Origin: Dacryopinax spathularia
Lineage: Eukaryota > Basidiomycota > Dacrymycetes > Dacrymycetales > Dacrymycetaceae
Direction: 5' to 3'
Assembly: GCA_037974965.1 (NCBI GenBank)
Contig: JBBPFI010000006.1
Span: 1,674,001 to 1,738,000 of the forward strand
Length of the DNA stretch: 64,000 nucleotides
The translations under genes and the position numbers were made by a program. The notes under the pieces were generated by a model that saw only the letters and a program-made list of their open reading frames with translations, did no database searches and was not told the DNA's origin. This document shows, piece by piece, positions 10,600 through 31,001 of this stretch; position 1 is the stretch's first letter, and each line of letters starts with the position of its first letter.

Positions 10600-10632
10600 A
10601 GGAACGCTAGCGTGCAGCGCACGCGATGATAT
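10600..10632 (+). repeat. Left copy of 33-bp terminal direct repeat with hairpin
   Basis: Identical over 33 bp to 30,969-31,001, same orientation. It contains the perfect inverted repeat GCGTGC-AGC-GCACGC (10,610-10,624; 6-bp stem, 3-nt loop) followed by GATGATAT. The sequences on either side of the two copies differ, so the match ends sharply. Relative to Rep-helicase transcription this would be the 3' terminal hairpin of the element. Confidence 0.9.
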
Positions 10633-10653
10633 AGGGAAAACGCTCCGCGCAAG

Positions 10654-10673
10654 TCCTGGGCCCTTGGGACTGG
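10654..10673 (+). repeat. Left inverted repeat of the element
   Basis: TCCTGGGCCCTTGGGAC and the following TGG match the reverse complement of 30,948-30,968 with one mismatch in the first 17 bases. It lies 21 bp inside the left 33-bp repeat, whereas the right partner directly abuts its 33-bp repeat, so the termini are asymmetric. Confidence 0.75.
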
Positions 10674-10799
10674 TGACGTAAGGTCAATTACGTAATCCAT
10701 ATCGATAGCGTCCAGTCTAAGCCGTGGTACGATTACTATACTAATATTACAGGAAGGTACTCGATGTCCCATTAGAGTGTCGCGGTAGGAAGGAACGGT

Positions 10800-11680
10800 T
10801 CAGTGAGTCGTGCAGTCCGATTCTTGTTTCTCGAGGGCCATATGTAAGGCGTAAGTGTCGGCGAGCATTCTTATTCTGTAGGACAGGTTAGTCAAGTTCC
10901 GCGTCAATGAAAATATTAGGTACGTACTCGTCATACGGAAGAGGCTTTCCCGTTCCCAGATAAGGACCGGTGAGGTACGTTGCGCCTGAAGGACGACGGA
11001 CTGTGATCGGTTTTTCGGGACGCTTTCCCTACAGTTTGTCGTCAGGATTAGAATGAAGACTTTATGGTACACGTACCAATGCCTTTTCAGACGGTTTCGG
11101 TACGCCCGTTGTACGTTTCTCGGGAGTGACTGGGACCATTACTTGAATGTCGTCGTCTATAATTTCAGTGACGCGTAATTTAGTTGGTCGAGCCGGTGTC
11201 GAGTTCTGGTCCGTGACCGGAGGTGTTTTACGTTTGAGCGGGTTACTGACGGCGGAAGGAACTGTCGGAGGATTGGCGGACGCGGTTGGAGGATTGGTGG
11301 TCGCGGTCGGGGTATCGGTGGGTTGGACGGTCGGACGAGCGGGGTCGTTTAACAGACTGGGGTCTGTCTGTGTCCATTGGGAGACGAGGACGGGAACTTC
11401 GAAGCCGGTAGGTGAATTAGGGTCATACAGGTCGGTCGATACTGTTGATTTCTGACGGCTAGGGGACGGAGAAGTACGTGTAATCGCTGGCGGTTCGTGT
11501 CTGAGAGGGTCGTTAATCGTGTTCTTGTCGTGCCCTGACATGTCGATGTTGAGGGTCGGACGAGCAGCGGTCGGTACCGTGGACTGCATGTTGGAACCCG
11601 ACGTAGTGGATGTGCCTGTCTGTCAGATAATTAGTACCGCGCGTAAGTAAAGGTAAATGTATGCGTACCGTAACCGTCAT
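10800..11680 (-). CDS. Element orphan A: Pro/Thr/Ser-rich protein
   Basis: Four exons (11,669-11,680; 11,077-11,619; 10,928-11,028; 10,800-10,875) join in frame to 732 nt, a 243-residue protein starting MTVTTGTSTTSG. All junctions have GTACG-type donors and CAG/TAG acceptors. The middle is disordered and rich in Pro, Thr and Ala (TDTPTATTNPPTASANPPT), with a basic KRK cluster that could be a nuclear localisation signal. The C-terminal exons carry a more ordered stretch (RRPSGATYLTGPYLG ... LADTYALHMALEKQ). No known domain recognised. It sits next to the 3' end of the element, the first gene inside the inverted repeat. Function unknown. Confidence 0.6.
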
Positions 11681-12258
11681 GTTGAAGTTATGTCTAGGAT
11701 TCGTGATTGTCGCCGACGTGCTCGTGGTACCGGTCTAGTACTTTGTAAGCATTCGTACAGTCTGAAAGACGGGTTCCGGACATTACTCGAAGACGTTTTC
11801 ATGACTATCCGCACACTATGTCCTCCGTCGTTGATCAAGTCAGGCGCCATATCTTCCCACGACATTGTTGGATTCCGCTAGAGGTGGACGCGTCGGACGT
11901 GATGAACAGCGTTAAAGGCCGTAAGCGATTGACAATATCTGTAAAAGAGTTTTAGTTAATCAGACAGACTAAGCCTTTATATTGTAAGGTATGAAAGACT
12001 TACTAGAACTGGACTGTTATCGGCGTGAAGTGATGACGGCGGAAAGGAAGAGTAAAGTGGTAATGAAAGGCGACGGACTGTAAGATCTAGACAAGGGACC
12101 TGTGAGTCACGTGGAGTCTTTAATATTGAGCGTTTCAGTCAGTTGGTGTGGCTGAGTCATTTTCACGTGTCGTTGCTTCCGACGCGCGTCGGGTCAGCTC
12201 ATATATGAAGAGTCTTCCCTGACGCGATTGACTCTGTACGTTTCTGTCTTTAACAACC
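11681..12258. other. Element intergenic region between orphan A and RPA70-like gene 1
   Basis: Divergent spacer of ~580 bp. A minus-strand frame at 11,677-11,865 is open but ends at a TGA overlapping the ATG of orphan A, so it may be 5' leader or an unmodelled exon. An AT-rich ATATAT patch lies near 12,200, ~55 bp before the ATG of the RPA70-like gene. Nothing else recognised. Confidence 0.35.
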
Positions 12259-14777
12259 ATGACGAACCTCATCAATTGCCTGACGAAGAACTACTGTCGT
12301 GAACTTCTGACGGATGCCGTCCTTCCTGACGAAGCCATGGTGCAAGTCTTGGCGATCAAGAAGGTCGAACTGCACGGACGGGAACTTGAGCCTCGCCGAT
12401 ACAAGTAAGGCGTTTGAGCATATATGCGTTGAACTTGTACTGACTCTATATAGATTTGTCATTAGCGACGGCTCTCATGCTCTGCCTGTCATGCTTTCGA
12501 CATATCAGAACGGTAAAGTGGATGGTGGAGCGATGGCGGTCTACGATATTGTGAAGATCCGTACGGTTGTCCGGCATATATCTGGTGGTTATATGTGAGT
12601 TCGTTTTATTGGTATGTGACACCCGTCTAAGTATATGCGTAGTGTTCCTATACTCTGTGTTGTGGATGTCGTCCATCCGTGTAAGGAAAAGCTACTGGAC
12701 CCAGTACAAGTCGACGCTCTTGTCGATAATGTTTCGAGGCACTTCCCCGGCTACCAACCTTTCGCCACAGTCTCCCCGGTTGCTGTCGAGCAACAGGGTG
12801 AACCGTCTATGGGCCCTATTCGAACGATACCTACGAACAGTCATCGTAGGCAGACCTCCCGACCGTGCGTGTTGCCGTTTCCTCGTAAAGACGAGGACGG
12901 TTACTATCGCGTCGCGGACTTGCGTCCAGCTCTTAACGCGTAAGTCATACATTCCATGTACGAGGCGGTGATTTGCTTAGTATTATCAGGATCAAAATTC
13001 GAGTCCGAGTCATCAGGAATACGGGTTCTACAGAGTTGAAGTCGAAGCCGGGTTGTTTCGTCTCCAACTTGACCTTGATGGACGCATCCGTGTGTATGTT
13101 TACAGGATGTATCGATTGGTACTGACAAAAACTCCATGTATAGGGAAAGATAAGTGCGGTTGCATGGAGACCAGAGGCGATCCGTAAGACCGATCTGTTA
13201 TTGTCTGGCAAGGTGAGTTCGCGTAATGTACTGGTGAACTACGGGGTTGACGTGAAGTCAGGTATATGCTATCACTGGCGGACAAGTCGTTCAGCCGCCG
13301 TCGCAGTTTGCTGTCGGGTCGCCTTTTCAGATCAAGTACGAGACTAGGTTCGAGGCGGTAGAGGTATGTTATTTTATTTACCGAGGTGACCTATGCCTGA
13401 TATGTGTTTTAGTTACCTGAAGATGGCAAAGTGCCGGACATGACGTATGATTTTGTACGGCTGAAAGACTTGGTATCTGTCAAGACAGGTAGTTGCGGTG
13501 AGTGCTGGATGTCGTGTACCTTGACAGGTCCTTACTGTAACTTAGATGTCCTGGTCGTCGTCAACCTTGTCGGAGAAGAAGTCCGGATGCATCTCAGGAA
13601 CAAGACCGGTATTGTTACGAACTTGACTGGGTCGTTCCAGCCGGCGTCTCAGTTGACTACTCGAGTGGATGACGGATCGGTCTTACGCGAGATTCAAGTT
13701 GTCGACTCTTCCGGGCACGCCTGTCGTGTTGTCGTGTGGGGAGAAGATGCGGTCAAGTTCAATGCTATCGTCGGGGATGTCGTCCTCATTCAAGCAGCGA
13801 GGATTTGTCAGTTCGGAGGACTGAGCTTGTCGGTGGAAACTGGAGCAAAAATTGTTTATGACCCAGACATTCCCGCAGCAGCGCAGTTACAGTCTTGGTA
13901 AGTGTGCTTGTGTACGTTATAGTGTAACTGACACGGTGCTAGGTTCGAACAAGGAGGACGTAACGAAACATTTATCGAGCTGTCGGACGCGGCGTTCAGT
14001 GCTTCGGCTTGTCAAAGACTGTATATGACGACGGGTCGTGAAGGTCTTACCAGCATAACCGATGCCGTTATGAATGAGATCGGATCTGACGGGGGAAAGG
14101 CTGTATTCAAGACTCGCGCATACTTGCACTCTATCAGGACGGATAGGGTCTCGTATAACGCTTGCCGTCTTCCTGGATGCAATGGACTCGCGACAGCTTT
14201 CATGGCTGAAGTTCCTGTCCTACGCGGGAATGGGAGGGGTGTTGTTGACGGTAACGAAGGCGACGCGGACGAGAAACCGTTGATAGAAAACAAGGAGTTA
14301 TGGGAATGTCGCGTTTGCGGGAAAAGTTTTGAAGATGCTCGTTATTGGTATGTACTGGAAGTACGGTTAAGTGTTTGACTGACTTGTTCTTAGTTATCGA
14401 CTTGAAGTGGAGATTACGGACGGGAACGAGACGATTCACGCTACTATGTTCGACCGTGTTGCCGAAAGTGTCCTGGGTATGCCTGTTACCAGACTGGAAA
14501 AGTTGAAGGTCGGCTTTTCAGTTAATATTCGGCGTCCTGTACTTGACCTTTGCCTGTGTAGGCCGATGAGGATTTGCAGTTTGAAGAGACCATTACGGCG
14601 GCCAAGAAATGGTATACGTTCACCGTACTGGCTCGTACCAGTTCTGTAAGTCGTTATCGTTCAACTTGACGGGTCTATTAACAGTTTCGATAGACCACAT
14701 CCCTCGTCGTGTATAATATTACTCGTGCGGATGCTCTTCCTCAAGTTGTGGAGTTTGGGGACGTTATTAGAACCTAG
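12259..14777 (+). CDS. RPA70-like single-strand DNA-binding protein 1 (four OB-fold layout)
   Basis: Homologue of the large subunit of replication protein A, carried inside the Helitron. At least eleven exons with consistent splice signals give ~650 residues (human RPA1 616). RPA70N-like domain: VQVLAIKKVELHG, FVISDGSHALPVMLS. DBD-A: IKIRVRVIRNTGSTELKS ... KISAVAWRPEA ... GKVYAITGGQVVQPPSQF. DBD-B: VVDSSGHACRVVVWGEDAV, FGGLSLSVETGAKIVYDPDI. DBD-C with zinc ligands in CRLPGCNG and WECRVCGKSF, then YRLEVEITDGNETIHATMFD. The key layout is complete, so the product could bind ssDNA made during rolling-circle replication. The last exon (VVYNITRADALPQ, stop 14,775-14,777) rests on an acceptor at ~14,690. 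RPA-like genes are known in some plant and animal Helitrons; the full four-domain form here in a fungal element is notable. Confidence 0.85.
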
Positions 14778-15102
14778 TCAATGACTGTCGTATCCATCAT
14801 GCATCCGTGACTGTATTGAAGGGTAGAGTACTAGTTCCGATGGAATGTACTGTATTGGACTCTTGCTTTGTACCGGTACGGAAGGAAAGTATACACAGAA
14901 AAGGAAGGGTGACTGTCCTGACGTGTCGAGAAAAGGTGAAGTACGTATAGCATATATTTCGGGTACATCACGTTGACAGGTCACGGTTTGTACCCTTCAG
15001 GCAGTACACGGTTTACAGTACAAGTGATTTCCCCGACCTTCTGTTGGACTTGTTAGACTGGTATATGTCAGCAAGTCAAGTAATGACTGACTTTTCCCGC
15101 AA
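14778..15102. other. Spacer between convergent RPA70-like genes
   Basis: 325 bp between the stop codons of the two RPA70-like genes, which converge. Probably holds both 3' ends; no gene seen. Confidence 0.4.
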
Positions 15103-16968
15103 CTATCGTACATAAGAAAGTTCGTCGCCTGTTCGGTATCCTGTCCAGTATCTCTTGATATTCTTGAGGACGAGAAGCCTATACATGACGGTCAGGACTG
15201 GTAGCTTAAAGGACTGATCTTTAGTTACCTTCATATCCCATAAAGAGGCAGCAGGTACACCTATAAGTTGACGGCCTGCATCGTTCCAGAAGACACAATG
15301 TAGAGTACGATGTCGGTCTCGTAAGTTCCCGTGAATCACGTAACTGGTCGATGTCAGATACAGGCAGATAACGAGCCTGAACTCGACGTACCGAATGTCC
15401 GACGGGCGACCTTGATATGAACACTTTCTGCAGCGGAAGGTACCAGAACCAGGAATGTGTTGAAGATTGCCGCTACAGAGACGTGCAGGACAGGGAAAGT
15501 AGAAAATACTGGTTTGGTTGAGGCTAGCTACGTTGGCGACGATCGTGACTTTCACGGGCTTTGAAGTCAGTTCGAAATTTGCGACTTGTTGTAACGTCAA
15601 GGTATGTTCGCTGGTCGAGGCATGCCACGCGGAATAAGCCATCGAATACGTCGGAAGAGGATCAAATTCTTCCAAGACGGGACCGGTCATCTAAGAAAGT
15701 TAGAGAAGACGATTACAATATGCTGAACAGAACGTACCAAGTCGACGTCTGAAAATTCATTTAGTACGATTGACTGATCTGCTCCGTAACTATAACGAAG
15801 ATCCGGTACTTCGACCGTAGCACGAGAAATACGATAAATCTAGGTATTGGTAAGTAAGGAGACAGACAGGTTTTTGTTTACGTACGTTGCCTTCTTGGCA
15901 GGATTCTAGCCTTGTACGTTCCGGTTCGTTCCAAGCCACGACTGGTATAAACGACTACGAGTTCGGTCAGTTATGTCATGTTACGAGTTCAGACGACATG
16001 GACGTACCGTGTAGTCTACAAAGATGGCAGTCACTGGAGCCGATTTTCCATTGGGAACGATTTTGTCGATAACGCGCCCCACTATGTACCAGCTTAGACA
16101 GTATTAGATAGACGTCGTAAATGTGCATTAAAGTTGCGTACTTTTCCATGTCCAGGCCGAGACGTAAGATATCTACGTGCTCATAGCCTTCCGGTGCCGG
16201 TGGAGTTACGTAGGTTCGTGTCGGACGGGGGGGACCGGGACGAATCACGGCCGGTAAGGTACTTGTTGCAGGACGTGTAACATGTCGAAGATCGGACGTT
16301 GACGAAGGTTGAGCCGTTAAAAGACCTGCTGTTGTAGATGTACCGGATGCATGTTGGTGAATGTCAGAGTGACCAGTAAGTTGTCTGTCCAGGTCCTCGC
16401 GAGTCGGTTCTGATGGGAGGTCTTCGACAGTCAAGTTTTCTTTTCCGTGTTGGACGATACCGTCGAGAATACGTAGAGGTACGCCCGTCCATTGGACAGT
16501 ATTCTTGGTTGAGAGGTGACGAGGATTGCCGTATATGACGTCCGTTGAATATGGTTTAGTGGTCTGTTTAAGTATCACGACGCTGATAGACGGATTTAGA
16601 AACGTCGGGACAGGAGTGCGAATATGGACGTACCGATAATGTCCGTAAAGATAGACCTCGTAATCCTTGATCTGGATCACGTCCTTTTCGTGTAATTGGT
16701 CGTCCGTTATAGTTTTTCCTAAGAGCAGACTGCAGGTGACAGGAATGGCATGGACACCATCATGGAGAGTTACGCTAATAAGATCGATCAATAACGCGTA
16801 TGACGGTACTTTTAGAGTTACGGACATGTATCGTGTCGGACCGGGCTTTCCGCTAGAGCCAATTGCGGATACGATAGAGAGTACTTGTACCTGGTTATCT
16901 TCGGTAATGTCTTCGCCTTGAAGGATTCGTTCGCAGATATAGGGTGTCAGCGGACTTGGAGTGGACAT
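15103..16968 (-). CDS. RPA70-like single-strand DNA-binding protein 2 (divergent, shorter)
   Basis: A second RPA large-subunit homologue, only distantly like the first. It starts MSTPSPLTPYICERILQGED, with an RPA70N-like domain (VQVLSIVSAIG ... ISVTLHDGVHAIPVTCSLLL ... VIQIKDYEVYLYG). A Thr/Ser/Pro-rich linker follows to about residue 270. Next is a DBD-A-like OB fold crossing introns at ~16.1 and ~15.98 kb (WYIVGRVIDKIVPNGKSAPV ... FVDYT ... IYRISRATVEVPDLRYSYG). The C-terminal part is DBD-C-like with zinc ligands CPARLCSG and FRCRKCSYQG, ending near CVFWNDAGRQLIGV. I see no clear DBD-B between them, giving ~560 residues. One acceptor (~16.09 kb) would be AAG. The gene is convergent with RPA70-like 1 and divergent from orphan C. 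Confidence 0.78.
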
Positions 16969-17360
16969 ATTAACGGACGTAACAGTCAGACGTAAAGGTA
17001 TCAGGAGAGAGGTCAGGTACAGTCACTTCGAGAACCATCCTTTATGCACGGATGCATTTCGGGCATGGTCAGAAAGATTCCCGAGTTTGGCTGAATAAGG
17101 TAAGTGGCTGATTAGGCCTTCCATCAGTAGGACGATGTGGTCGGACTTGTTCTGGAAAGTCGCGTAAGTGGAAGAAGAATAAAAGTTAACCTGCATAGTT
17201 ACTTCTAATATAGTCGCGTGTACAAACGAATGTGACGTATATTTTGGGCTGAAACCGTGTCACACGTGATCTATCTAGTCAGCTTCCGTGTATATAACTT
17301 GTCATTGGGATCCGTGACGCGTCTTTGCGCTCGACCATCACTGCCAGTTCCCAGTTCAAG
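16969..17360. promoter_or_regulatory. Divergent promoter region, RPA70-like 2 / orphan C
   Basis: About 390 bp between two divergent starts. A TATATAA box at 17,291-17,297 lies ~65 bp upstream of the ATG at 17,361, a plausible TATA element for the rightward gene. No other motif identified. Confidence 0.4.
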
Positions 17361-18052
17361 ATGACCACTTCCGTCATTTACAGTACGTATGAATAGTTTT
17401 CGAGGCTTTTACCGTACTAAACGACCTATTAGCCGCGATCCAGACAGTAACCTTACCGCGTACGTGGGCCTGAATGTGTCAAGTGAATCGACACTTAATT
17501 CCTTATATAGAATATGTTGGATATGACCGTCGCTATTTGCACGATAAGACGAGCGTATACGAGAAAGAGATTGTACTGGACCAGTACGATGCGGAGGTAG
17601 AGAAACTGTTCAGTGGTCCGGGGAAAGTAGATGGATTTGAAGAAGCAGGTACGTACTCGTCATAGTCTCTGTTCGGTCTAAGTGTTGACATGTCCTAGGT
17701 TTTTCCGACGATACGCCAGTCGTGGTACGACATCGTTCAACAATTCTAGGTGTAGGGTTGACGTTGTGTACAGTTTGTTGGCTTTAACCGCAACGAGGCT
17801 GTCGACAGTTCGGTCCCGAAGGAAGATATTCCAATGATTTCCGACGATTCCGACTCCACGTCCAGTGTTATAACGGACTTTGATGTTAACAGCCAGGACG
17901 GTTGGAACTCTGACAGTTCCTTCGGTGAAGTCGACAGTTCGGTGGCGGAGTATCGGGTCGGGGGTAATGTATCGTCCTGGGAGTTATATCATCATATACT
18001 TCTGGTGAACGCATATATCTTCGATGAGGTTCAAAACACGTACAATCAGTAA
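17361..18052 (+). CDS. Element orphan C: acidic protein
   Basis: ATG at 17,361 follows a TATA box. Exons of 22 nt and ~28 nt, then 17,513-17,671 and ~17,700-17,750, read in frame: MTTSVIYTAIQTVTLPQ, YVGYDRRYLHDKTSVYEKEI, VLDQYDAEVEKLFSGPGK, FSDDTPVVVRHRSTIL. The last part (about 17,830-18,052) is a strongly acidic, Ser/Asp-rich tail (ISDDSDSTSSVITDFDVN) ending in a hydrophobic helix-like segment before TAA. The splice joining the last two exons could not be fixed in frame by hand, so the C-terminus may belong to an alternative exon. No family recognised. Confidence 0.5.
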
Positions 18053-18193
18053 ACATTTTTCGATACAATTGCGTCTTCATGGATTAGAACTTGTACACAG
18101 TATGATTTTCTGCGAATGTTATTATTACTATGCGCTGTCTAGTTTGCGATACAGTCCTGACGACTACAATATCAATAACTGAGGACACGGCAG

Positions 18194-19781
18194 TTAGGTA
18201 TAGGTGAATCGGGGAATGACATTTGAAGATATATACGCTTGCAGGAGAGGGCAGACAAAGATCTCGTGGATGCGAGTTCGCAGGTATATCGTTTGTTCTT
18301 GTATGCGACGACGTTGGTCGAGATCATGCGTCGTATTGACGAGTATCTGTAGATTCGGCCATATGATGGTCTCAGTAATAGATACCAGACACTCGTCGTA
18401 TAACGGAATGTGGGATAGACATAGACGAAGAGGATACGGTAACGACCCTTGTGGTTGGACGAGGAACGTGATCGACGTGAAAGAACATGTTCGCAATGAT
18501 GGACAGGTCATTACCAGTCTTGGTAAGCAGTTGACTGTAAAGGCGTTCGGTAGAGCGAGACCTAGACATTGTTCATTCGGTAGATCATCTTGTAGAGGTA
18601 ACCAGTGAATCGATAGGTCTTCTAAGGCGGTCCAGTCGCGAACAAGGTCGAGGAGAGTATCGTCACGGAGCGGGAAGTGGCTTTTAAGCGAGTATTGTAG
18701 GTGGAAGGAACGGACGAGATTGCAGTTCGGTAGGTGTATGCGCATTTCCTCGAATGGGAGTGGATGGATTACATGTTGATGGGGACCGTGCAGATAAATG
18801 CTCAGTTGTTTGACAGACGCGTGATTACGAGCTATATGCTTGAACATTGCGAAAGTATCGATACCGCCTTCAGTAAAAGCACAATCGATGTCGATAACAT
18901 CGACCAGGGACGTGAACGATGAAAGCAAGTCAGCGACGAGACCAGACGAAGTCCGGATGTACAGCTCTTTCAAGTTATAGGCAGGCGTCGTGACCGTGCC
19001 ATGACCGACGACGTCAGCGTGACGGTTGAGAGGAAGAGATCCAGTAAGCGTCAATTTCCGAACGCTTGACCGCGTAAGGATATCGACAAAACCGGCGTAA
19101 CATAGACTGCGAACGTCAAGGGTCAATTCCTGGACCGAAAGTGCGGTCGACGCGTAACCGATCCGAGTATTGAAGCGTTCTTGTACCTCCTGCGATAAAC
19201 TGAAAATGAAGGTGAACTTCTTTATCGTCCGATTTTGAGTTGGTAAAAGGCGGAAGAAATCGTTTAGTCGGTCTAGTCCGACCAGTTGGAACGACCCATC
19301 GCTTATAGTATGAATATCGAGGTTGTCCAGGTCCGTTGGGAGATAGGATAGAGAAGCCGGGAGGACGTATCCTTGTCTGTGTTGTATGCGGACACCTTTC
19401 AGTCGCGAAAATGTACCGTGTGTTTCTGTCGAGTACCATGAACAGTACATGTTATATCGCGACTCGTCTTGATTCGTGAGTAAGACAAGGTCGAGACATC
19501 GAACGTTGTGGATCCAGTAAAGTTGGGCAGGCGTTGCCTGCCATGTCTTTTGTAAGTATCAGAATGTAGATATATGCTATATAATATGCATGAAATGGAC
19601 TGACCATAAGTATAACTTTCCGAAACCCGCTTTCCGTCATGTATCGTCGCAGCCGTGACAGTGTAGGATACATCGAACGACAGGTCATTCCAAATGCTGA
19701 TACCGTTCCGAACTGTCTTTCCTCCAGGAGAACGTCCGCGACTTCTGTTAGTAATTCGGCGATGGTAAAGAACCGATGCAT
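18194..19781 (-). CDS. F-box / leucine-rich-repeat-like protein on the element
   Basis: First exon begins MHRFFTIAELLTEVADVLLE and continues FGTVSAFGMTCRSMYPTLSR, the shape of a fungal F-box (helix-helix, 'T-CR-MYP' end). After an intron at ~19.56-19.61 kb a ~400-residue frame follows with recurrent leucine-rich segments (LTLDVRSLCYAGFVDIL, LVDVIDIDCAFTEGG, TALEDLSIHWLPL, CPSLRTCSFTSITF), as in the irregular LRR tails of fungal F-box proteins. An intron near 19.40 kb is likely. F-box proteins recruit substrates to SCF ubiquitin ligases, so this could alter host protein turnover, but that is inference and the F-box match is by eye. An upstream in-frame ATG at 19,859 would add 26 residues. Confidence 0.62.
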
Positions 19782-20083
19782 GTTGATGGTGATGTTGACA
19801 GTATAGTTCCTTGCCGATAACCGTAAGCTAGTCGGGAGAGTGTTAAATAAAAGGATCAAAGGAACTGTGAGAGAAGGGATGATGACAGAAAAGATGAAAG
19901 TAATGTATATGGGTAAACGCGCCGAGTCCTGTACGGGAAGGTGATGTGATTACGTCACGTGACGGTAGACCATAGCGTACTTGGATCTTATCAGGACCGG
20001 TTAATGCAACAGGAATAGACCAGCCAATCTGATTCAAGCACGTGTATTACGAGGAGCTATACCCGACATGTCAAGGCGATGTA
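19782..20083. other. Element spacer
   Basis: About 300 bp between the start of the F-box-like gene and the stop of orphan E. Likely carries the F-box-like gene's promoter; nothing recognisable. Confidence 0.3.
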
Positions 20084-21544: not shown

Positions 21545-22180
21545 TGCCCTAGTAATAGTGTCAGTATATGATAACTCGCTGTGTACAGGGCTTACCGTCG
21601 AGACCGCTTGTTAACTGTTAACTGGCTGGCGCCGTTTCCGTCCTTTACAGTGGACGACCTCCGCTTCATACCGCTGTCAGTAACGGTTTACGGGACTAGA
21701 CTTGTTTATATAGGTCGAAACATGTCTGGTGGAAGAGGAAGAGAACGGCGATGCGTGCCCGAAGGGTAGACAGAAGAGTACATGAAGTGACGCTTATCGA
21801 GTACCGTGCCGAGTAAAAGAACACTTCGCGGACTACTGGAAACATTTCACGGAATTCGTAACCATCATCTGAATATTGTGAGATGCTCCAGAAGGTTCTG
21901 TATGTGCGGGCTTACGTATCAGAGACATATCATGGAACTGATAAGCCTTAAAATGGACTTGCATCAAGTTCTGAACGGAAACGGAATCGGACGACGACCT
22001 GAATTGACTGACTCGACCAGGTGGAGGCTGGTCACCTGTTCATGAATGGGGCAAGGTAAACGCGATGGAAGCTGAAGAAGTTGATGTACATGAAACCAGC
22101 ATGTGCGGTGATCGCCGTGAAAATCGTCACAAGACGTTATGGAACGTTTTTTGCTTTTCTGTCCCTGACGGAGTCAATAC
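21545..22180. other. Element region with uncertain 5' exons
   Basis: Between the presumed starts of orphans E (minus) and F (plus). A TATATAGG patch lies at ~21,708. Short plus-strand frames (from ATGs at 21,806 and 22,065) could be 5' exons of orphan F but could not be joined with confidence. Confidence 0.3.
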
Positions 22181-23635
22181 ATGCACGTTACAGGACCAAT
22201 CACATTTGACGAACGGGTCACGGAACTTCAGGTTCTTCATTATTGGACCGGCATAGTTTTCCAGACTGACGATAGTGAATGTGTCGAAGATAAGAAAGAG
22301 AATATTAATTGGTCAGGCGGTACGGTGAGTGACAGATCATGTCACACGTCCCATACGGACCGAACAGAACCCCAAAACTGTCACCTATACGTGACCCGAA
22401 TCAATGTATTTGCCGACAAACTCGTTTTACGAGTCATTACTAAGATACATCCTGTCAGCATAGTGAGGGACAGTGTTCGTCAAAAGGAAACCAGTGACGG
22501 GACAAGATCAACCAACCCAGTACACGTCTATAACTTGGAATCAGTTCAACTTGACGGAAAGGACAGATGGCATTCTTTACAGGTACGTTACGTCTTAACG
22601 TCGAGCACGTTACACCATATGACTGTTTCGTACAGACCGAGAAGAGCTTTTACGGGACACGTGGCAACATCCGCAAGCCATACTCGTTATGGACTCAGAT
22701 GTCAAGACAATAATCGACCAGAAGCCGGATCTCGATGAGCAGTTCGATGTCCGTGTAATCGAACAGTACCGTGTTCGTCGAAAACGCGCATGGCAGATAA
22801 CTTGGAAGATGAATTCGAAAGGAATACGAACGAACTCGATCGCTCACTTTCGTATTCAGGGGCATGTAAAAACATTCCGACTGGCACGTCTCGGTAACTG
22901 GAATGGGTAAGTAAGGCATCCGGTAGGGGACACTACCAGTCTAATCACCTTTACAAGACTGGAAAAAGATGCCTGTCGGGCTACCCAGTTCGTGACCCTT
23001 TCGGGGTACGGTCATGATGAAACATGGAAGAAGACAATCAAGTACATTAACGTCATACGGCAATATCTGTTTATGGCAACCGGTAACGAACAGATCAATA
23101 AACCGTTTTCAGACTCTGCAACATCGTCACTATCCTTTTATCGTCTGGTATTCTTTAAGGTGAGCCCGGATATCAAACAACCTCCACGTGGACTGATGCG
23201 GTCATGACGAGAATCTGACGGGAAAAGAACGCACGCTTGAACCCCGAGACGATCCGAAAGGTGATGCTCGTCGCATTCGAAACAAGTGGACACCCGGAAC
23301 ACCTGTCAAATTAGGAGTACGAACCAGTACAGGAAGCGTCAGACCAGCGACAGAAATGGCGTTTCGAGAAGGAGACTTTGCCGACGTGGCTTTCACAGTA
23401 CAACTACTACATCTCGAACGCGGACCGGTCATGAATCTTGTGCTACATCATGTCATTCGGTTAGGGACGTGGTCTGATACGCACCAAGTAAGTCAACCGT
23501 CAATCGTAAAAGGTAACAACTGTTAACAGTATAAATCAGGACTCGCCTTTAGAAGAAAGCCGCGTAAGACAAGAATCAGAGGAAGGAGAAGGTGAAGAAG
23601 AGCCATGCACAGTAACCTTCGAGTACGAGGAATAA
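22181..23635 (+). CDS. Element orphan F: multi-exon protein of unknown function
   Basis: Plus-strand exons with consistent coding character end at TAA 23,633-23,635. Segments: ITFDERVTELQVLHYWTGIV; CHLYVTRINVFADKLVLRVI; a long exon to ~22,910 with DVKTIIDQKPDLDEQFDVRV and TWKMNSKGIRTNSIAHFRIQ; after an intron, RATQFVTLSGYGHDETWKK and IKYINVIRQYLFMATGNEQ; a basic stretch with GKERTLEPRDDPKGD; then FREGDFADVAFTVQLLHLER and LGTWSDTHQ; and a Glu-rich final exon (~23,539-23,635) ending CTVTFEYEE. Introns resemble host ones. The true start may lie upstream. I recognise no domain; the beta-rich look is not enough to call it an OB fold. Confidence 0.5.
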
Positions 23636-23994
23636 ATGATTGCCGACCATGTTGAGTTTATAGATCTCTTATTGAACGCGAAATGATCAATCATCATCGT
23701 TCCGTCGATGGAATGAAGCCAAAGAATCGAGCGCGTGCTGTAGCTGTTGCAAGCGAAGTACGCTGACAATACAGTACTCGGTCGAACACGACGAGTTGTA
23801 TCCGTCGGTCTTTGAACGCTGAAGATTTAAGGAACAGAACCGTCAGAGTCAGGACGCGTCAGCCATGAGATAAAGTGGACAGACCGCGTTCGGTTTGCCA
23901 TGTAACGTATCATCGTCATATCGAGAACTGTCTTTGAAAGACAAGACATGAACCTGAACTAGGCATCAGAACCGATACTGCCGGGACAAATCCG
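23636..23994. other. Element spacer
   Basis: About 360 bp between the convergent ends of orphans F and G. No supported gene; a minus-strand 77-codon frame at 23,536-23,769 overlaps the end of orphan F and looks like a shadow. Confidence 0.3.
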
Positions 23995-24420
23995 TTACTT
24001 TACCGCGTGGTCAGACCAGTCTCCCTCAACAGAACTGGCCGTTACGATTCCATCAATTACCCTATCGGAGCTTTGAGATGCCTGGAAGTGACGGTGAGAC
24101 CGGCAACGAACCAGATCAAGACGGCTTACTTGACATGAAAGTTGTTGTTCACGCCAACGTCGTCTTAACGGTTTCTGTCCTTTGACCCAGGTCGGTACTT
24201 TACAAGTAGACAGATAGTAACCCTCCCGACGAGGACACGTTAAGCCTTCGTATCCTTTGACCCACATAGACGCTTTGCCGTCCCAGTACCAACATTCATG
24301 AGATCCCAACTCGTCTAGTTCATCGAAATAGAAGATAGACAGGTCTGAAAGGAAAGGGCGTATGTTGGATTCTGGTGCCGGCGGCGAGTGACAGCGCTTG
24401 CTCCGACGAGACCGGTACAC
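23995..24420 (-). CDS. Element orphan G: small basic, Cys/Trp-containing protein
   Basis: Single open frame of 141 residues starting MYRSRRSKRCHSPPAP. It has an aromatic, acidic part (LSIFYFDELDELGSHECWYW) and two copies of a W-V-K-G motif (ASMWVKGYEGLTCPRREGYY and VPTWVKGQKPLRRRW), which suggests a small internal duplication. The tail is basic then mixed. No family recognised. It lies between orphan F and the Rep-helicase gene, same strand as Rep-helicase. Confidence 0.42.
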   Translation of the reverse strand: MYRSRRSKRCHSPPAPESNIRPFLSDLSIFYFDELDELGSHECWYWDGKASMWVKGYEGLTCPRREGYYLSTCKVPTWVKGQKPLRRRWREQQLSCQVSRLDLVRCRSHRHFQASQSSDRVIDGIVTASSVEGDWSDHAVK

Positions 24421-24700
24421 AGTGAAGTCGCGGTATAGCGTAATGTGAACGATGGTGTCGTTTACTGATACATGCGTTCGTAAGACGGCGCGGACTGTAT
24501 TTGCGTTATAGTAGGACTTTCAAGGATTAATGATGGACGTACTGGGCGGCATGTTGAGTACAGTAAGCGTAGAGGAAAGCAGAATGTCGACCAGAACAGT
24601 ACACGACGAACAACGATACGAGAGGAAGAACGAGTTTCAGGATACTGACAGGTACAGTCACTGCCACTTCCGGGCCGAATTTAGAACCGTAATCAGATCA

Positions 24701-27700
24701 TCATGTCTGATTACATAATCCTTCTAATCGTCTGAACTCTTCTCGCAACTCACCAGATAAGGCCGAATACAGTACCGTAGGTCTGAAATCCCGTAAGACT
24801 AGTAATCCGTCCAACGTCTTGACTCTGGATAACATTACATACATGCTCTGTAGAGTACTGCAACTGCTAAGGTCGACAATAGCACGCGACAACGAACGAC
24901 CTTGTGCCTTATAGTCGGTATATGCATAACAAGGAAGTAAGGGTAACTGTCGTCTCTTAACTGTAAACCGAGTGTTTGAACGGGGATGTTTGTAAGTGAA
25001 ACTTGTCTTAACTGGAAGAATAGGAACGACATCATCCTGTAATCCGAGACCCGACATATTCGATTCCGGTATGTGAACTAGCACCATGACAGCTACACGG
25101 ATACCATCTACGACCTCGTATTTAATGTCCCGGACTGTACCTTCCGCTCCATTAACAACTCTGTACCGTAACGCGACATTTTCAGTAACCATTACTCGCA
25201 TACCCAAAACCAAAGGAAGAGCACCCAACGCATCACCGGTTACACTCGAAGGCAATTTTTGTAAATGGGATTGGAGTTTGCCTTTCAGTAACCGTTGTCC
25301 GATATAATCCTGAGCGTAATAACAATGAACGTCCTGCTTCGTTACCGTCGCGAACCTATTTACAGCTCGTCGATTCAGTTCGTCACGAACAGACCGAGTT
25401 GTCACTATAAATGGAACGTCCTTAAAATGTTTTAAGGCATCTCGTCCGTCGTCCTGCTGCATAATTACAGATATACATCTTGACCGTAAAGTCTCATAAT
25501 CAGAACAAGAATAATTTCCGTATTCTTCTATACCTTTTTGAGCTTCAGTCAAAGGGTTGATACCGTTCCAAGCGATACCTTGGCGTACGCGAGCCAACAA
25601 ATTACAATACCTTCGATCACCTTCCTGCCGCACGTTCGTTTTCAACAAGACAACCGTCTTCACCTGACGCCATAAGCAGGCACCATAAAGGTCAGACTGT
25701 CCATGACAAGACTCCGATACGGATTGTGGTATGTTCCGAACGAGTTTATAATCAAAAAGCGACTTAGCCCGTACGGGACGCAGTTGACCGAAATCGCCAG
25801 TAAATATAACATTCAAACCTCCGAACGGTTTAGACAAGCCTTGACGGTTACGACTACTACAAGCTATACACAACTTCTGAGATATACGACTCAACAAGCC
25901 AGCCCCTATCATAGAGATCTCGTCGATAACGAGGTAAGAAATGTCCTTCCACATAACTTGTAATGTACCTGCAGAACCGCGATCATAACCCGGACGAGTA
26001 CCGTTACCTATACAAGTCACAGAATGAATCGTAAAACCTCCGATATTCACGGCTGCGATACCGGTAGGAGCGGTCAGCATTAAACTGGACCGCCTTCCCA
26101 GACGGTCGAAGAGCTCGACTAGCGTTTCGATCACATAACTTTTACCCGTTCCAGCTACACCGCCAACATACATCAATAACTGATCGTCTGCATCATTTCG
26201 TTCAAGATGAGAACCAACTGTACGAATTACAGCAGATTGTTCCGGATTGTTCAACATATTTCTTCGAGACAGAATGTCCTCTACAATGTCTGTAATACCC
26301 AGTACGACCCGACCGCCTGAGATCAATGCCTCCGATGACAATGAATCGTCTCTGACTGAAATGTCCAAAAGGGGCTGTTGATTTACTGTCAGACGCGGTC
26401 TTTGCCGAGGTCTGTTTTCATTCAGATCGTCCTGAATCTCATCCCTTACACGTTTCCGGGCGTTCACCATGACAGCTGATAACTGAAGGATATCTGATCG
26501 TTCTTCACTTGTAACGTCCCGTATAGAACCAGTCACGCACATCGACCGGTCCGCTACGCTATCCGAATCCACAAATAAGGACGCAGAATTTGCAGCTGCA
26601 ACCGCAGACAGTACGTCAGAAGGAACCGCTGAAACCGACTCCACCATACCTGATTCCGTACTCTCATCCCTCATTATAAGAGATTCCAAACTGTCTACGT
26701 TTTCTATATCGTGCACACTTAACGGATCCACATTGAACATCGAAGTACGCTTACGTCGACGACGAGAAGCTTGAAGTTCGTCCCTAACAGATTGACAATC
26801 ACGTTGTATAACGATATTGTCCATTACTTGCTGTAAATGGTCAGGAAATTCAGTTCTTTCAAATACAGAAGACCACGTCTCGTCCATTCCCTTTAAGTCG
26901 CAAGGCTTCCTCCATGGACTAAAAAGAATCAACATCGCCCTACACCAGATTTCGTACTGGTCCACAGAGCCATCAAGACGCGGAATCGTCGGTCCCAATA
27001 AAACGGGAAATACAGAACGCTCACGGAAACGAACGAAATGACTTTCCGACTGCCTGTGACTAGGTTCAAACATACCACGTTGCTGTAACCGACGACCACG
27101 GTTAGAGTACGGTGACGTATCGCGAGCCAGTCTTCGCTGATCATGCGATAAAGGTACCTTAACGGTTCGCGCGACAAAATCCCATAAAGATAACTCTTCA
27201 AATACAGGATCTACCGGTCTATACATATAATCGTATTGTTGATTAGACGCCGTAACACTTTCAGATCCTATAACGATATCCTCTACCGAATCCGGTTCCA
27301 AGATGTCAGAACCATGACCATCCATGTTTCCAGTCACCGCACAGCGACATAAAAGTCGCGTAGGGCATAGATTGTCACCTTCTATCACGTTACTTACATC
27401 GTTCTCTTCCCGAAGATGATATCTGAAAAGACGATCAAACGAGCCCCATAACAAGTTAGCAAACGTACCGCTAGTATAGTGATCTTCATAACCAAGTAAA
27501 TCCGCCATTACCTGAGCTTGCGAAACCTCTCTACGAGACATGATTGCGTTCACCAATCTCGTTACTAACTTCCAAGACTGATCATCGTCGACAGGAACGA
27601 CGTCAATGTCGGAACCGATCGAGTCCAGTAAGTATCCGAGAGCTGAGAGCCCTTCGTAAACAGGCAAGTCCGTCTTCGTAACGTAATCCGTCACGTAGTA

Positions 27701-30565
27701 CATCAGAGCTTTGGCCGCCTGACCCGAACCAATAAATTTTATATCCATGTTACAGCGAAATAAAAATAAACAGACGTCATTATAATTGCAAATCCTAGGA
27801 TGAAGACGCCGAAGGTTCAATGTACCTGTCACAGGATCGAAAATCGTTCTTGGGCATGTACTTCCGTCCATCCGCATCCGACAGGTCTTATCGTCACGTT
27901 TCTCAAAAGGGGACAGATACTTCCAACAAGTAGCACTATGTACATGCCAATTACATTGTACAGCAAGGGACTCGACCTCACCCGCAAACAACGTCCTGAA
28001 CTGGTCAGTCGGTAAGTTATCGATAACAGGAACTGACTGCGTCCTACAGTCCACACGACCGGTCAGATTCGGTCTTGTAACGGGTAACTCAACCACGGCC
28101 GACCCGGTAGACGGCAACTCAGACTTGATGATGTCCTCTAACCAACTCGTCAGACGATCCTTATAATCATTATCCATCACCAATCGTTCCCTCATAGACT
28201 GAGGAGGTAAATGACCTTCTAACCATATAATAAAATGACAGTGCAACGTTCCTCGAGCCTGTGCTTCTACCATACCGTAATAGCCTGAACATTTACCAAA
28301 CAAACCAGCTTCGTCACGACCGTACCGTAAAACATTTTCTACAAATGCAGTCATTATGATATTGAAAAAGGTAGCACAGGCGACAGGATTCTTGGCAGCA
28401 AGGACAGCACGTCTGAACGAGTTCAATTCAATATCACCACGAGCTGCGTCCTCCATAGATATGTCTTCTCCCGACAATAACCGTACCAAAGGATGTCCTC
28501 GATCAAAAGGGTTAATCGTAATATATAACGCAGGCGTAGACAGGACAAGCGACATACTGCGCATTTCATTCCGACACTTCATCTTATGACCCGGTGAACC
28601 AGGTAAAGACATACAAGACAAGTTTAAACGTCTTAAAATAGACTGAATCGACCTTTCGCCATCATTACTAGGACGATAAGCCGGATTAGAACGCGTCTTG
28701 AATTCGAAAGCCGTCAGCACGTCTACAGAAATGGACTGTAACTTCCTTAAAATGTACGACCGTTCGGCGGACTTGACACGAAATCGAATAGTTCGATAGA
28801 CTTCTCGCTTTCGAATAATATTGTAACAAATAAAAGCAAAAGTCGGATCGACGGCAAACGGCGACTTGTACAGTGACAGTAGATGTCTCACTTGTTTCCT
28901 GAGATCGACAGTCTTACCAAACCGATCCTTTCCAAAACGGAAAAGACCAAATGGGTCCAAATGTGGCCACATCCAAGTTAACAAGTAAGGACAGTCAAAG
29001 TCATTTATAGATACAGTACCGGGTACACTTCGAACAAACGGCTTACCTTGTAAACACCACGACAAGGCGGACAGTTTCATACGATCATAGTTCGAATTCG
29101 TCACATCTGTTTCTGTCCAACCCACCGTATCAATCAGAACACCGTTCGGATCCTGTCCATCTGAAACAACGTATTCCCGATTATCATAAGAAGAACCAAC
29201 AGTCCCAGCCGGATCGGTCTCTCGCAAATGTCCGACAGACACTGACGGCGGCAAGTCCGACTCACTTTCCAACGACACAGACGGAGGAAATAAAGCATTC
29301 CAATTACTTTCACTGAAACGACAAGGACCATCAAATCCGTAACCGCCTATCGAATAAGCAGGATTATGAACAAGAAGGAACTGTATCAATGTCCGAACGA
29401 TACCCGGAGTGACCATAACAGGTCGAAAATGCCGAATGGTTCTTTCATTACGGGACCGCGAAGGGCTGAAAAGTACAACGACCGACTTATTGATCTCGTC
29501 TGGAGGAGGAGGTAAAACCGTATTTAACGACAAGAAGTCCTGAGGTAGAACCATCACATTGCCTTTGGTGTAACTCTGAGAGGTTGACCGCGGACCACCG
29601 GGAACAGTCGAAAACAGTTTATCACTATACTTGAAAGTCACTGTACTACCCCTAACTCGAGACACCAACAAGCGATCAAATACAGATGAAGAGTTCAGTG
29701 CCAACTGTACAGACGACGGCACTCGTTCCATTGCAAAATAATAACCATTAGCAAATGCGAATTCAGGAACTCTACCTTCACGTAAAGACATTGCACATGT
29801 CCGACATAAACGAACTGTACCCTCACGTCGATCACGACATGACAGACTTTCAGGATGTAATAGAGCACCATCATATGCAGATACGTTATAGGATAGAGGA
29901 AGTAGATGCGAAGGTAAACCGTGGGCGACAAGCAGCGAAAGATCTAGTTCGGTAACATTTCTCAATACTAGATCTGTACCTACACAACCGCGGCCACAAG
30001 TACCACACGGAAACCGTCTTTGCGTGTCCACCGACAGAACTTGACTCGTCTCCTCAATCAAACGACGTTTAGATTCCATATCCATAATAGAAGGACCCGG
30101 TTCAACGACTCCAGACAGATGCGGAACACGACGACCGCTATCAGTAGTCGCGTTCATAAACATGTCCGGTATCGGTAAAGGTACGTCGCCAGTCCGCCGC
30201 CGCGTCCATCTAAGTCTGAAAACAAAACAAGCCTGAAAGCATTCTCGACAGGTACAATCGCGACATTGCAAACGTGTCAACATATCCGACTTCGTCATTA
30301 ATAAAGAGAACGAATCTTGATAGTGACCCATACTGCTAATACGTGACATCTCGGCCTTTGTGAAGTACGGATACACCAGAACTAGATCTTTCACAGTAAT
30401 ACCCTGCAAGAAGACATCACGTACGTCACGCTGAAATGTACGCTCACACATGTCCTCTTTACTAACGAAACAGCCCAAGAGATCGTACCACATCCGTAAC
30501 TCAGCAGTACTAAGAAACCACTGACCATTTTCTTCCCTTAACGGTCCGACAGCACCCTCCACCAA
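24701..30565 (-). CDS. Helitron Rep-helicase (RepHel) transposase, uninterrupted
   Basis: One intronless frame of 1,954 codons. N-terminal Cys-rich part (CRDCTCRECFQAC) and a second cluster (CGTCGRGC), then the region typical of fungal Helitron proteins (LCRTCAMSLREGRVP, VLPPPPDEI). The Helitron N-terminal/Rep nuclease domain has the HUH metal motif as H775-C-H777 in GTLHCHFIIWLEG. The catalytic tyrosine motif YYVTDYVTK holds tyrosines 956, 957 and 961 with K964. A Pif1-type SF1 helicase fills the C-terminus: Walker A GVAGTGKS (lysine 1475), Walker B LVIDEISMIG, FTGDFGQLRPV, LGMRVMVTENVA and the closing AYTDYKAQGRSL / YVMLSRVKTLDGL. No APE endonuclease or OTU domain seen. All hallmark residues are present, so the protein looks functional. 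The start is the first ATG of the frame; an upstream spliced leader (~30.6-30.9 kb) is possible. Confidence 0.95.
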   Translation of the reverse strand: MVEGAVGPLREENGQWFLSTAELRMWYDLLGCFVSKEDMCERTFQRDVRDVFLQGITVKDLVLVYPYFTKAEMSRISSMGHYQDSFSLLMTKSDMLTRLQCRDCTCRECFQACFVFRLRWTRRRTGDVPLPIPDMFMNATTDSGRRVPHLSGVVEPGPSIMDMESKRRLIEETSQVLSVDTQRRFPCGTCGRGCVGTDLVLRNVTELDLSLLVAHGLPSHLLPLSYNVSAYDGALLHPESLSCRDRREGTVRLCRTCAMSLREGRVPEFAFANGYYFAMERVPSSVQLALNSSSVFDRLLVSRVRGSTVTFKYSDKLFSTVPGGPRSTSQSYTKGNVMVLPQDFLSLNTVLPPPPDEINKSVVVLFSPSRSRNERTIRHFRPVMVTPGIVRTLIQFLLVHNPAYSIGGYGFDGPCRFSESNWNALFPPSVSLESESDLPPSVSVGHLRETDPAGTVGSSYDNREYVVSDGQDPNGVLIDTVGWTETDVTNSNYDRMKLSALSWCLQGKPFVRSVPGTVSINDFDCPYLLTWMWPHLDPFGLFRFGKDRFGKTVDLRKQVRHLLSLYKSPFAVDPTFAFICYNIIRKREVYRTIRFRVKSAERSYILRKLQSISVDVLTAFEFKTRSNPAYRPSNDGERSIQSILRRLNLSCMSLPGSPGHKMKCRNEMRSMSLVLSTPALYITINPFDRGHPLVRLLSGEDISMEDAARGDIELNSFRRAVLAAKNPVACATFFNIIMTAFVENVLRYGRDEAGLFGKCSGYYGMVEAQARGTLHCHFIIWLEGHLPPQSMRERLVMDNDYKDRLTSWLEDIIKSELPSTGSAVVELPVTRPNLTGRVDCRTQSVPVIDNLPTDQFRTLFAGEVESLAVQCNWHVHSATCWKYLSPFEKRDDKTCRMRMDGSTCPRTIFDPVTGTLNLRRLHPRICNYNDVCLFLFRCNMDIKFIGSGQAAKALMYYVTDYVTKTDLPVYEGLSALGYLLDSIGSDIDVVPVDDDQSWKLVTRLVNAIMSRREVSQAQVMADLLGYEDHYTSGTFANLLWGSFDRLFRYHLREENDVSNVIEGDNLCPTRLLCRCAVTGNMDGHGSDILEPDSVEDIVIGSESVTASNQQYDYMYRPVDPVFEELSLWDFVARTVKVPLSHDQRRLARDTSPYSNRGRRLQQRGMFEPSHRQSESHFVRFRERSVFPVLLGPTIPRLDGSVDQYEIWCRAMLILFSPWRKPCDLKGMDETWSSVFERTEFPDHLQQVMDNIVIQRDCQSVRDELQASRRRRKRTSMFNVDPLSVHDIENVDSLESLIMRDESTESGMVESVSAVPSDVLSAVAAANSASLFVDSDSVADRSMCVTGSIRDVTSEERSDILQLSAVMVNARKRVRDEIQDDLNENRPRQRPRLTVNQQPLLDISVRDDSLSSEALISGGRVVLGITDIVEDILSRRNMLNNPEQSAVIRTVGSHLERNDADDQLLMYVGGVAGTGKSYVIETLVELFDRLGRRSSLMLTAPTGIAAVNIGGFTIHSVTCIGNGTRPGYDRGSAGTLQVMWKDISYLVIDEISMIGAGLLSRISQKLCIACSSRNRQGLSKPFGGLNVIFTGDFGQLRPVRAKSLFDYKLVRNIPQSVSESCHGQSDLYGACLWRQVKTVVLLKTNVRQEGDRRYCNLLARVRQGIAWNGINPLTEAQKGIEEYGNYSCSDYETLRSRCISVIMQQDDGRDALKHFKDVPFIVTTRSVRDELNRRAVNRFATVTKQDVHCYYAQDYIGQRLLKGKLQSHLQKLPSSVTGDALGALPLVLGMRVMVTENVALRYRVVNGAEGTVRDIKYEVVDGIRVAVMVLVHIPESNMSGLGLQDDVVPILPVKTSFTYKHPRSNTRFTVKRRQLPLLPCYAYTDYKAQGRSLSRAIVDLSSCSTLQSMYVMLSRVKTLDGLLVLRDFRPTVLYSALSGELREEFRRLEGLCNQT

Positions 30566-30947
30566 GTAAACCTGCCGGATACCGGCTAAAACCCGACATC
30601 AATCGTAACGTCAACAGAACAGACAACAGACAAGGCAGAAGCCAAAGGTTATGGAAAAGAAAAAGATTCCGTCAGAAACAACAACTGCAGTCTGAAACAG
30701 ACACGTACCAGAACGACCATCCTCGACAGGCATCACGCTCGACGACAACATACTGGTTAACATGAACGACTCGATAAGCACTACTGAAAAACTGATGACG
30801 CGTTCGACTAAACATGTTATGACGGACACAAATTGCCGACCATGTGATTTCCTCTACAGACTGATTTCCATTACCTTTCCTTTCCATATCCGACATGGTC
30901 CCTATTCATCGAACGGATGCAAAGTACGTTGCTTTTTACCCCTCAGA
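30566..30947. promoter_or_regulatory. 5' leader region of the Rep-helicase gene
   Basis: About 380 bp between the Rep-helicase ATG and the right inverted repeat. It should hold the transposase promoter. A minus-strand open frame at 30,672-30,896, with a GTACGT donor near 30,706, could be a 5' leader exon; this is not established. Confidence 0.35.
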
Positions 30948-30968
30948 CCTGGTCCCAAGGTCCCAGGA
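30948..30968 (-). repeat. Right inverted repeat of the element
   Basis: On the minus strand this reads TCCTGGGACCTTGGGAC then CAGG, pairing with 10,654-10,673. It starts with TC, as Helitron 5' ends do, and directly abuts the right 33-bp repeat. Confidence 0.75.
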
Positions 30969-31001
30969 AGGAACGCTAGCGTGCAGCGCACGCGATGATA
31001 T
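30969..31001 (+). repeat. Right copy of 33-bp terminal direct repeat with hairpin
   Basis: Perfect copy of 10,600-10,632 in the same orientation, with the GCGTGC-AGC-GCACGC hairpin and GATGATAT. Relative to Rep-helicase this copy lies just outside the element's presumed 5' end. Confidence 0.9.

Follow-up and report, generated by a model that had tools for sequence, protein, structure and literature searches.

Helitrons are usually viewed as transposons with a single main gene and a tendency to acquire fragments of others. Between two host genes of the basidiomycete Dacryopinax spathularia, however, a Rep-helicase (RepHel) gene is accompanied by about eight others, which raises the question of whether these are resident genes of a single mobile unit, recently captured passengers, or members of an ordinary host cluster. 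Here, we compared the copy in the analyzed stretch of 64,000 nucleotides (contig JBBPFI010000006.1, positions 1,674,001 to 1,738,000; hereafter, the window) with related loci across the assembly (29.2 Mb in 24 contigs). A RepHel protein search of the genome pointed to at least 25 places, of which seven further loci were compared first, followed by C7b and flanking or short pieces; W denotes the window copy, and C1a, C4a, C2a, C2b, C11a, C7b, C17a, and C18a are loci on other contigs. We put at roughly 0.85 the probability that the locus is a large autonomous rolling-circle transposon of the Helitron2 type, a 20-kb unit in which, as sequence comparison suggests, the accessory genes are inherited.

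Extent, copies, and ends of the element

The element spans positions 10632..30968 of the window (20,337 bp) and, in RepHel orientation, lies on the minus strand, with the 5′ end at 30968 and the 3′ end at 10632. It is inserted between divergent DOCK (minus strand) and ferrochelatase (plus strand) genes, the host flanks named in the initial annotation, and comprises, as anticipated there, a block of about 20 kb with the RepHel and eight modelled cargo genes. A GC plot bears out the further claim that the composition of the block is unlike that of the flanks: in 1-kb windows, GC content is 44.5-50.9% across 11-31 kb and 50.9-64.4% elsewhere in the window.

The loci C1a and C4a show 100% identity over a shared 20,326 bp, and the sequences flanking them are unrelated (self-comparison and 80-bp flanks). 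W is collinear with both: its positions 10631 to 30685 can be aligned with C1a in four blocks, at 65-76% identity and separated by short gaps, and its ends match. A second pair, C2b and C11a, shows 98.6% identity over 21.4 kb. These copies document, at the level of sequence, the mobility of the unit and its exact ends. The complete identity of C1a and C4a could also reflect segmental duplication rather than transposition, but in both pairs the identity ends at the same two terminal sequences and the 80-bp flanks are unrelated, which makes this origin of the copies very unlikely. The same comparison bears on the possibility of an ordinary host gene cluster with a chance Helitron insertion. The modelled genes do contain introns with ordinary splice signals, as host genes would, but the whole block is copied elsewhere, with breaks at the Helitron ends, its composition departs from that of the flanks, and C1a/C4a refute a host cluster unless both arose by segmental duplication with breakpoints that coincide by chance; we consider the probability of this scenario negligible. 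One additional copy is incomplete: contig C7 opens inside it (C7:1-15027), the RepHel is cut by the contig start, and the matches score like those of C1a, so that an assembly break or contig end falls within the element.

The termini were resolved in five copies (W, C1a, C4a, C2b, and C11a), which share the 5′ terminus TCCTGGGACC and all have a T on each flank; in RepHel orientation, they start with TCCTGGGACCTTGGGACCAGG directly after the flanking T and finish with CCCTA or CTCTA directly before it. An asymmetric terminal inverted repeat, TCCTGGGACCTTGGGAC (30952..30968, minus strand), is located at the very 5′ terminus and is the same in all five. Its 3′ counterpart (10654..10670, minus strand), with a 16/17-bp match in W, C1a, and C4a and a 12-bp match in C2b and C11a, is set back 22 nt from the 3′ terminus and precedes a mini-hairpin (CGC-GGA-GCG; 10641..10649, minus strand) that reads CCC-GGA-GGG, with one compensatory change, in C2b/C11a. 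This arrangement is the Helitron2 layout as given in the available text of PMC3627910, in which the 5′ repeat sits at the terminus and the 3′ repeat, 20-30 bp from its own end, precedes the hairpin. It is by these ends, with the 5′ repeat at the very terminus (0-2 bp in the definition of the group) and the 3′ one, here at 22 nt, within the 20-30 bp range, that the sequence assigns the element to Helitron2. A canonical Helitron1, with a CTRR 3′ end, A/T insertion, and no terminal inverted repeats, was rejected on account of the CCCTA/CTCTA ends and T flanks in 5/5 copies. When the terminal motifs of the resolved copies were looked for in C2a, C7b, C17a, and C18a, they were not found. The single-strand folding energies of the terminal hairpins, including a possible 5′ hairpin of the kind that involves the inverted repeat in Helitron2, in which TCCTGG is able to pair with CCAGG, indicate no more stability than in shuffled DNA, so that the case for these hairpins consists of their position and the one compensatory change.

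The initial annotation placed the block inside matching terminal repeats. The repeats are real but lie outside the termini: two identical 33-bp direct repeats (10600..10632, the last base of which is possibly shared with the element, and 30969..31001) flank W, and the true ends are just inside, at 10632 and 30968. The repeat could fold into a hairpin with a stem of 6 bp, and a 24-mer from it, sought across the 29.2-Mb genome at a tolerance of up to 3 mismatches, occurs at these two sites only. Terminal or recombination sites were rejected as an interpretation because the four other resolved copies (C1a, C4a, C2b, and C11a) are without the repeat (0/4 in self-comparison and 80-bp flanks). Given that some Helitron2 elements have been described with target duplications that vary in length, we regard the 33-bp repeats as an oddity with precedent rather than as a terminal repeat; the described cases, in the available text, are CRe-1, 2, and 3, mostly at 5′-truncated copies (PMC3627910).

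An intact RepHel and eight modelled companions

The nine gene models were obtained from the comparison of W with C1a, using our own script with a score that favors synonymous change. Gene finding in the single genome, trained on the RepHel alone, missed most of the cargo genes, and tblastx between W and C1a was too noisy for use alone. Among the 18 W models scoring at least 5, 11 were kept and 7 were dropped because they overlie stronger genes. Dropped antisense models reach scores of up to 25.6, compared to 16.4 and 13.8 for the kept pieces of G4, 15.2 for the extra exons of G6, and 33 for G1; the G4 pieces and extra G6 exons, being outscored by dropped models, are in doubt unless backed by other evidence. 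The models of G1 and G4 are the weakest of the nine, that of G1 above all. An independent check comes from C2a, which played no part in building the W models and yet yields protein matches for 7 of the 8 cargo genes, the exception being G1.

Across the nine genes, dN/dS is 0.03-0.20 and dS 1.0-2.1 (RPAb and G4 were compared in pieces); the dN/dS values lean low, since the model score rewards synonymous change, and pertain to the retained models only. Mismatches by codon position amount to 0.38-0.50 at the third, 0.06-0.25 at the first, and 0.03-0.15 at the second. Thus, all nine genes display, in their sequences, a pattern of purifying selection with similar synonymous divergence, which, together with the whole-unit copies in different flanks, agrees with the earlier view of these genes as residents of one mobile unit.

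The RepHel (24701..30585, minus strand; alternative starts at 30493 or in an upstream exon, 30709-30751), identified by Pfam and motifs, had been described as unbroken, and it is intact in sequence: its 1,954 aa are in frame and include Helitron_like_N (PF14214) and PIF1 (PF05970) domains, and all motifs are present (HUH, two-tyrosine, and Walker A/B). The combination of an HUH/two-tyrosine Rep with a PIF1 helicase is that of the Helitron superfamily. The motifs are intact in 7/7 proteins read, and dN/dS between W and C1a is 0.09. An AP endonuclease domain, the criterion for Helentrons, was absent from the Pfam matches to the 1,954-aa protein at E values up to 1, so that the element does not classify as a Helentron. 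No relatives of the RepHel were confirmed in viral_contigs by a single-protein search, which reaches close relatives only. The same genome probably harbors a second Helitron class, represented by six RepHel matches (C5:590421, C1:2180410, C2:2052622, C15:89827, C2:1468288, and C8:683744) that are far nearer the Pfam consensus (E 1e-61 to 2e-64, vs 2.6e-28 for W).

Both RPA70-like genes of the initial annotation were recognized by Pfam, RPAa being tested as the C1a protein. RPAa (G2; 12259..14777, plus strand; about 660-675 aa, 11-12 exons) contains four OB regions with zinc-ribbon cysteines, one OB match being below the cut-off. It aligns with human RPA70 (E 8.7e-32), with which it shares the zinc-ribbon cysteines as well as the WGEDA and FGG-SLSV motifs, and its dN/dS of 0.03 indicates stronger constraint than that on the RepHel (0.09). 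RPAb (G3; 14981..16968, minus strand; 497 aa, 11 exons) matches Rep_fac-A_C (E 1.2e-13) and, below the cut-off, Rep-A_N (E 4.6e-5). The host RPA1 (C2:1634929, L040) is a separate canonical gene that scores 536 bits to the PDB chain 4gnx_C, which we take to be Ustilago maydis RPA, and 383 bits to human RPA70, compared to 91 and 114 bits, respectively, for RPAa. RPA-like sequences with no RepHel within 17 kb were observed at C5:1769335, C9:168733, C2:96959, C1:2277783, C8:1125508, C5:1636928, C13:394350, and C15:371974.

The F-box/LRR-like gene, G5 (18172..19781, minus strand; 494 aa), was modelled as expected, but the product has no Pfam match of its own; it is the C17a homolog that passes the F-box threshold, with 21.2 bits against the required 20.5. 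Eighteen G5-related loci lie away from any RepHel found (for example, C7:117540, C2:2964717, C1:2517358, and C8:331217), with some pairs scoring nearly equal, as if duplicated; these may be host genes or RepHel-less elements.

The five intron-bearing orphans, too, could be modelled, with the reservations on G1 and G4 stated above, and none has a Pfam match (G1 and G4 were tested as C1a proteins). G1 (10800..11865, minus strand) encodes about 250-270 aa and has the highest dN/dS, 0.20. G4 (17361..18052, plus strand; about 163 aa) consists of two model pieces in W and one gene in C1a, and matches C2a with E 4e-6. G6 (20084..20996, minus strand; 252 aa, 4 exons, with an uncertain upstream extension to 21669) is under tighter constraint than the RepHel (dN/dS 0.03 vs 0.09). 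G7 (22567..23635, plus strand) encodes 286 aa in 5 exons. G8 (23687..24552, minus strand; about 140 aa) is conserved in 24103-24552, the remainder of the model being doubtful, and has homologs in C2a and C2b and a similar stretch in C18a. PDB profile searches of G6, G7, and G8 returned nothing credible, and a PHROGs search with G7 gave one non-significant match (E 0.025, 1/4 members). For the C-terminal exon of the C18a G7, for which a structure was predicted (pLDDT 70.5, pTM 0.53), the top PDB hits of the fold search were DUF2815 and the phage Enc34 and T7 gp2.5 ssDNA-binding proteins, at E 0.2-2, phage OB folds being among these neighbors; there were no matches at E ≤ 0.001, unrelated proteins were mixed in, and the viral library gave a similar result. 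The predicted fold offers a weak lead, namely, that G7 is possibly an OB-fold ssDNA-binding protein.

The 20-kb size and the many genes on both strands would also befit another kind of giant element (a Starship, a Polinton/Maverick, or a DNA-virus-like element) that gained a RepHel. Pfam, however, detects no recombinase, integrase, PolB, or capsid protein among the nine proteins, six of which match nothing, no relatives of G7 or, in a search that reaches close relatives only, of the RepHel were confirmed in viral_contigs, and the ends are Helitron2-like, so that we find such an origin highly improbable.

Linkage of the cargo to divergent RepHels

Downstream of the W RepHel, the order is G8, G7 (opposite strand), G6, G5, G4 (opposite), RPAb, RPAa (opposite), and G1. 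C2a, the RepHel of which is 55% identical, retains G8, G7, G6, G4, RPAb, and RPAa in the W order and orientation, with an F-box-like gene upstream of the RepHel. C2b (RepHel 48%) carries G8, G7, G6, the N-terminal domain of RPAb, and RPAa, along with two G5 relatives and a third gene, whose match to LRR is weak (E 0.066). The more distant loci encode reduced sets: G7, G6, and an F-box gene in C17a (39%), G7, G6, and the G8-like stretch in C18a (40%), and G6 and an RPA in C7b (38%). G7 was not found in C7b, nor G8 in C17a or C7b, and W and C1a were the only loci to yield G1. Thus, the notion of a resident gene set holds in that most genes, with their order and orientation, are kept beside RepHels of 48-55% identity and a reduced set is kept at 38-40%. 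The set is not complete in every lineage: RPA was not detected in C17a and C18a, in which about 20 and 18 kb past the RepHel, respectively, were covered (2 of the 7 distinct lineages read).

The evidence on linkage comes from within this one genome. The genome-wide count took in 45/45 RepHel profile matches and the cut RepHel of contig C7, all 30 G7 and all 23 G6 matches, all 22 RPA-like matches of one search and 14/58 of another (one per locus), and 30/32 F-box/LRR-like matches, two second exons being left out; the resulting counts are lower bounds. Genes within 17 kb were considered to be near a RepHel, and at most 5.5% of the genome is that close to any RepHel. Among the matches listed, G7 is near a RepHel at 16 of 17 loci, never on the RepHel strand (0/16), and G6 at 11/11 loci, always on that strand (11/11). 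RPA-like genes are near a RepHel at 21/30 loci among the matches listed, the host RPA1 being one of the other nine, and F-box/LRR-like genes at 11 of the 29 listed. These loci include near-identical, non-independent copies, with about ten G7 lineages by our own grouping on identity and spacing. The sole G7 locus without a RepHel within 17 kb (C5:1825777-1826013, L038) is a solo remnant or a RepHel-less derivative. The identity of the cargo tracks that of the RepHel (Spearman 0.88 for G7, 15 pairs; 0.73 for G6, 21 pairs; 0.96 for RPAa, 10 pairs), and the gene trees agree with the RepHel tree save for C2a and C2b, the positions of which are exchanged in those of G6 and G7. The linkage of G6 and G7, including that to RepHels only about 38-55% identical, indicates that, in the sequence of this genome, the core is an inherited gene set rather than the result of random capture.

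Extra genes in Helitrons are usually explained by gene capture (PMC4289320, PMC6431247, in the text available), and recently captured host genes or fragments carried as passive cargo would be compatible with the restriction of G1 to one lineage and with the 18 of 29 listed F-box/LRR-like loci outside RepHel neighborhoods, which imply that G5 may indeed have been captured. For the unit as a whole, however, we judge this explanation to be unlikely: the genes are full-length, with the purifying-selection pattern and a synonymous divergence like that of the RepHel, their order and orientation are kept beside divergent RepHels, and the element RPA is far from the host RPA1.

Proposed mechanism and relation to known systems

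By the mechanism we propose for the Helitron2-type unit, the RepHel would nick the element at the 5′ terminus, unwind it, and peel off one strand of about 20 kb; base pairing between the 3′ and 5′ inverted repeats would mark the stopping point, and the released strand would be joined to a T-flanked target. A 20-kb single strand would need much ssDNA-binding protein; the two RPA70-like proteins, and perhaps G7, would supply the coating, protecting the strand and lessening the demand on host RPA or taking its place. At a guess, the role of the F-box/LRR-like protein could be to steer the host ubiquitin machinery, and G1, G4, G6, and G8 would be helpers. The accessory proteins, then, probably coat and manage the long single-stranded intermediate.

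As to the initial suggestion of a new class of large rolling-circle element, the large, gene-rich unit is there, but by its ends it is of the Helitron2 type. We lean towards the view that it represents an undescribed, ancient lineage of giant fungal Helitron2 replicons that is nearly self-sufficient, possibly has a sustained circular phase, and carries a fixed, inherited replication and accessory module (two RPA70 paralogs, the OB-fold-like G7, the orphans G6 and G8, and F-box/LRR proteins). If so, the element would be a nearly self-sufficient replicon and not a single-gene transposon that happened to pick up cargo. In the open-access literature searched, a scope outside which most subscription papers and preprints fall, we found no report of a conserved nine-gene fungal Helitron set. 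A 2019 review, in its available text, characterizes full-length gene capture by Helitrons as exceptionally rare and gives sizes of 6-7 to 14 kb for fungal Helitrons and up to 39 kb, with captured fragments, for those of maize (PMC6431247).

Among the known systems, Helitron2 shares with the present element the inverted-repeat layout, the RepHel, and the T-type 5′ end (Bao and Jurka 2013, PMC3627910), but a single RepHel ORF is described for it in the available text of PMC4067079, as opposed to nine genes in 20 kb here. The FoHeli elements of Fusarium oxysporum resemble it in being fungal and in having asymmetric inverted repeats; FoHeli1 and 2 start with TC, and FoHeli1 has two identical copies, but these elements are about 5-11 kb in size and the authors, in the part available, found no RPA-like gene (PMC5148889). 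HELPO1 of Pleurotus ostreatus carries one to four cap genes downstream of the RepHel, and its capB is found with RepHels in other basidiomycetes; it differs, according to the accessible sections, in a RepHel ORF without an RPA domain and in the few cap genes, treated as captured (PMC4289320). The comparison with HELPO1 was made on this description.

RPA in Helitrons is already known from plants and animals. An RPA70-like gene is aboard plant Helitrons, such as Mothra, where the plant RPA falls outside core RPA (PMC4683698), and Helentrons, which are likewise rolling-circle transposons (PMC4067079), but the hosts are plants and animals and no comparable nine-gene set is reported in the available text of either source. 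Closer in size is proto-Helentron-Pi of Phytophthora infestans, at about 14 kb with a SET-domain protein and two hypothetical proteins beside the RepHel, but it differs in the oomycete host, other cargo, A/T insertion, and Helitron-like ends (PMC4067079, as far as available). Given that identical copies of the present element exist, the role of RPA for Helitrons becomes testable. A 20-kb element with nine genes, most of which are inherited together and under selection, would be evidence that rolling-circle transposons are able to become complex replicons, as Polintons have.
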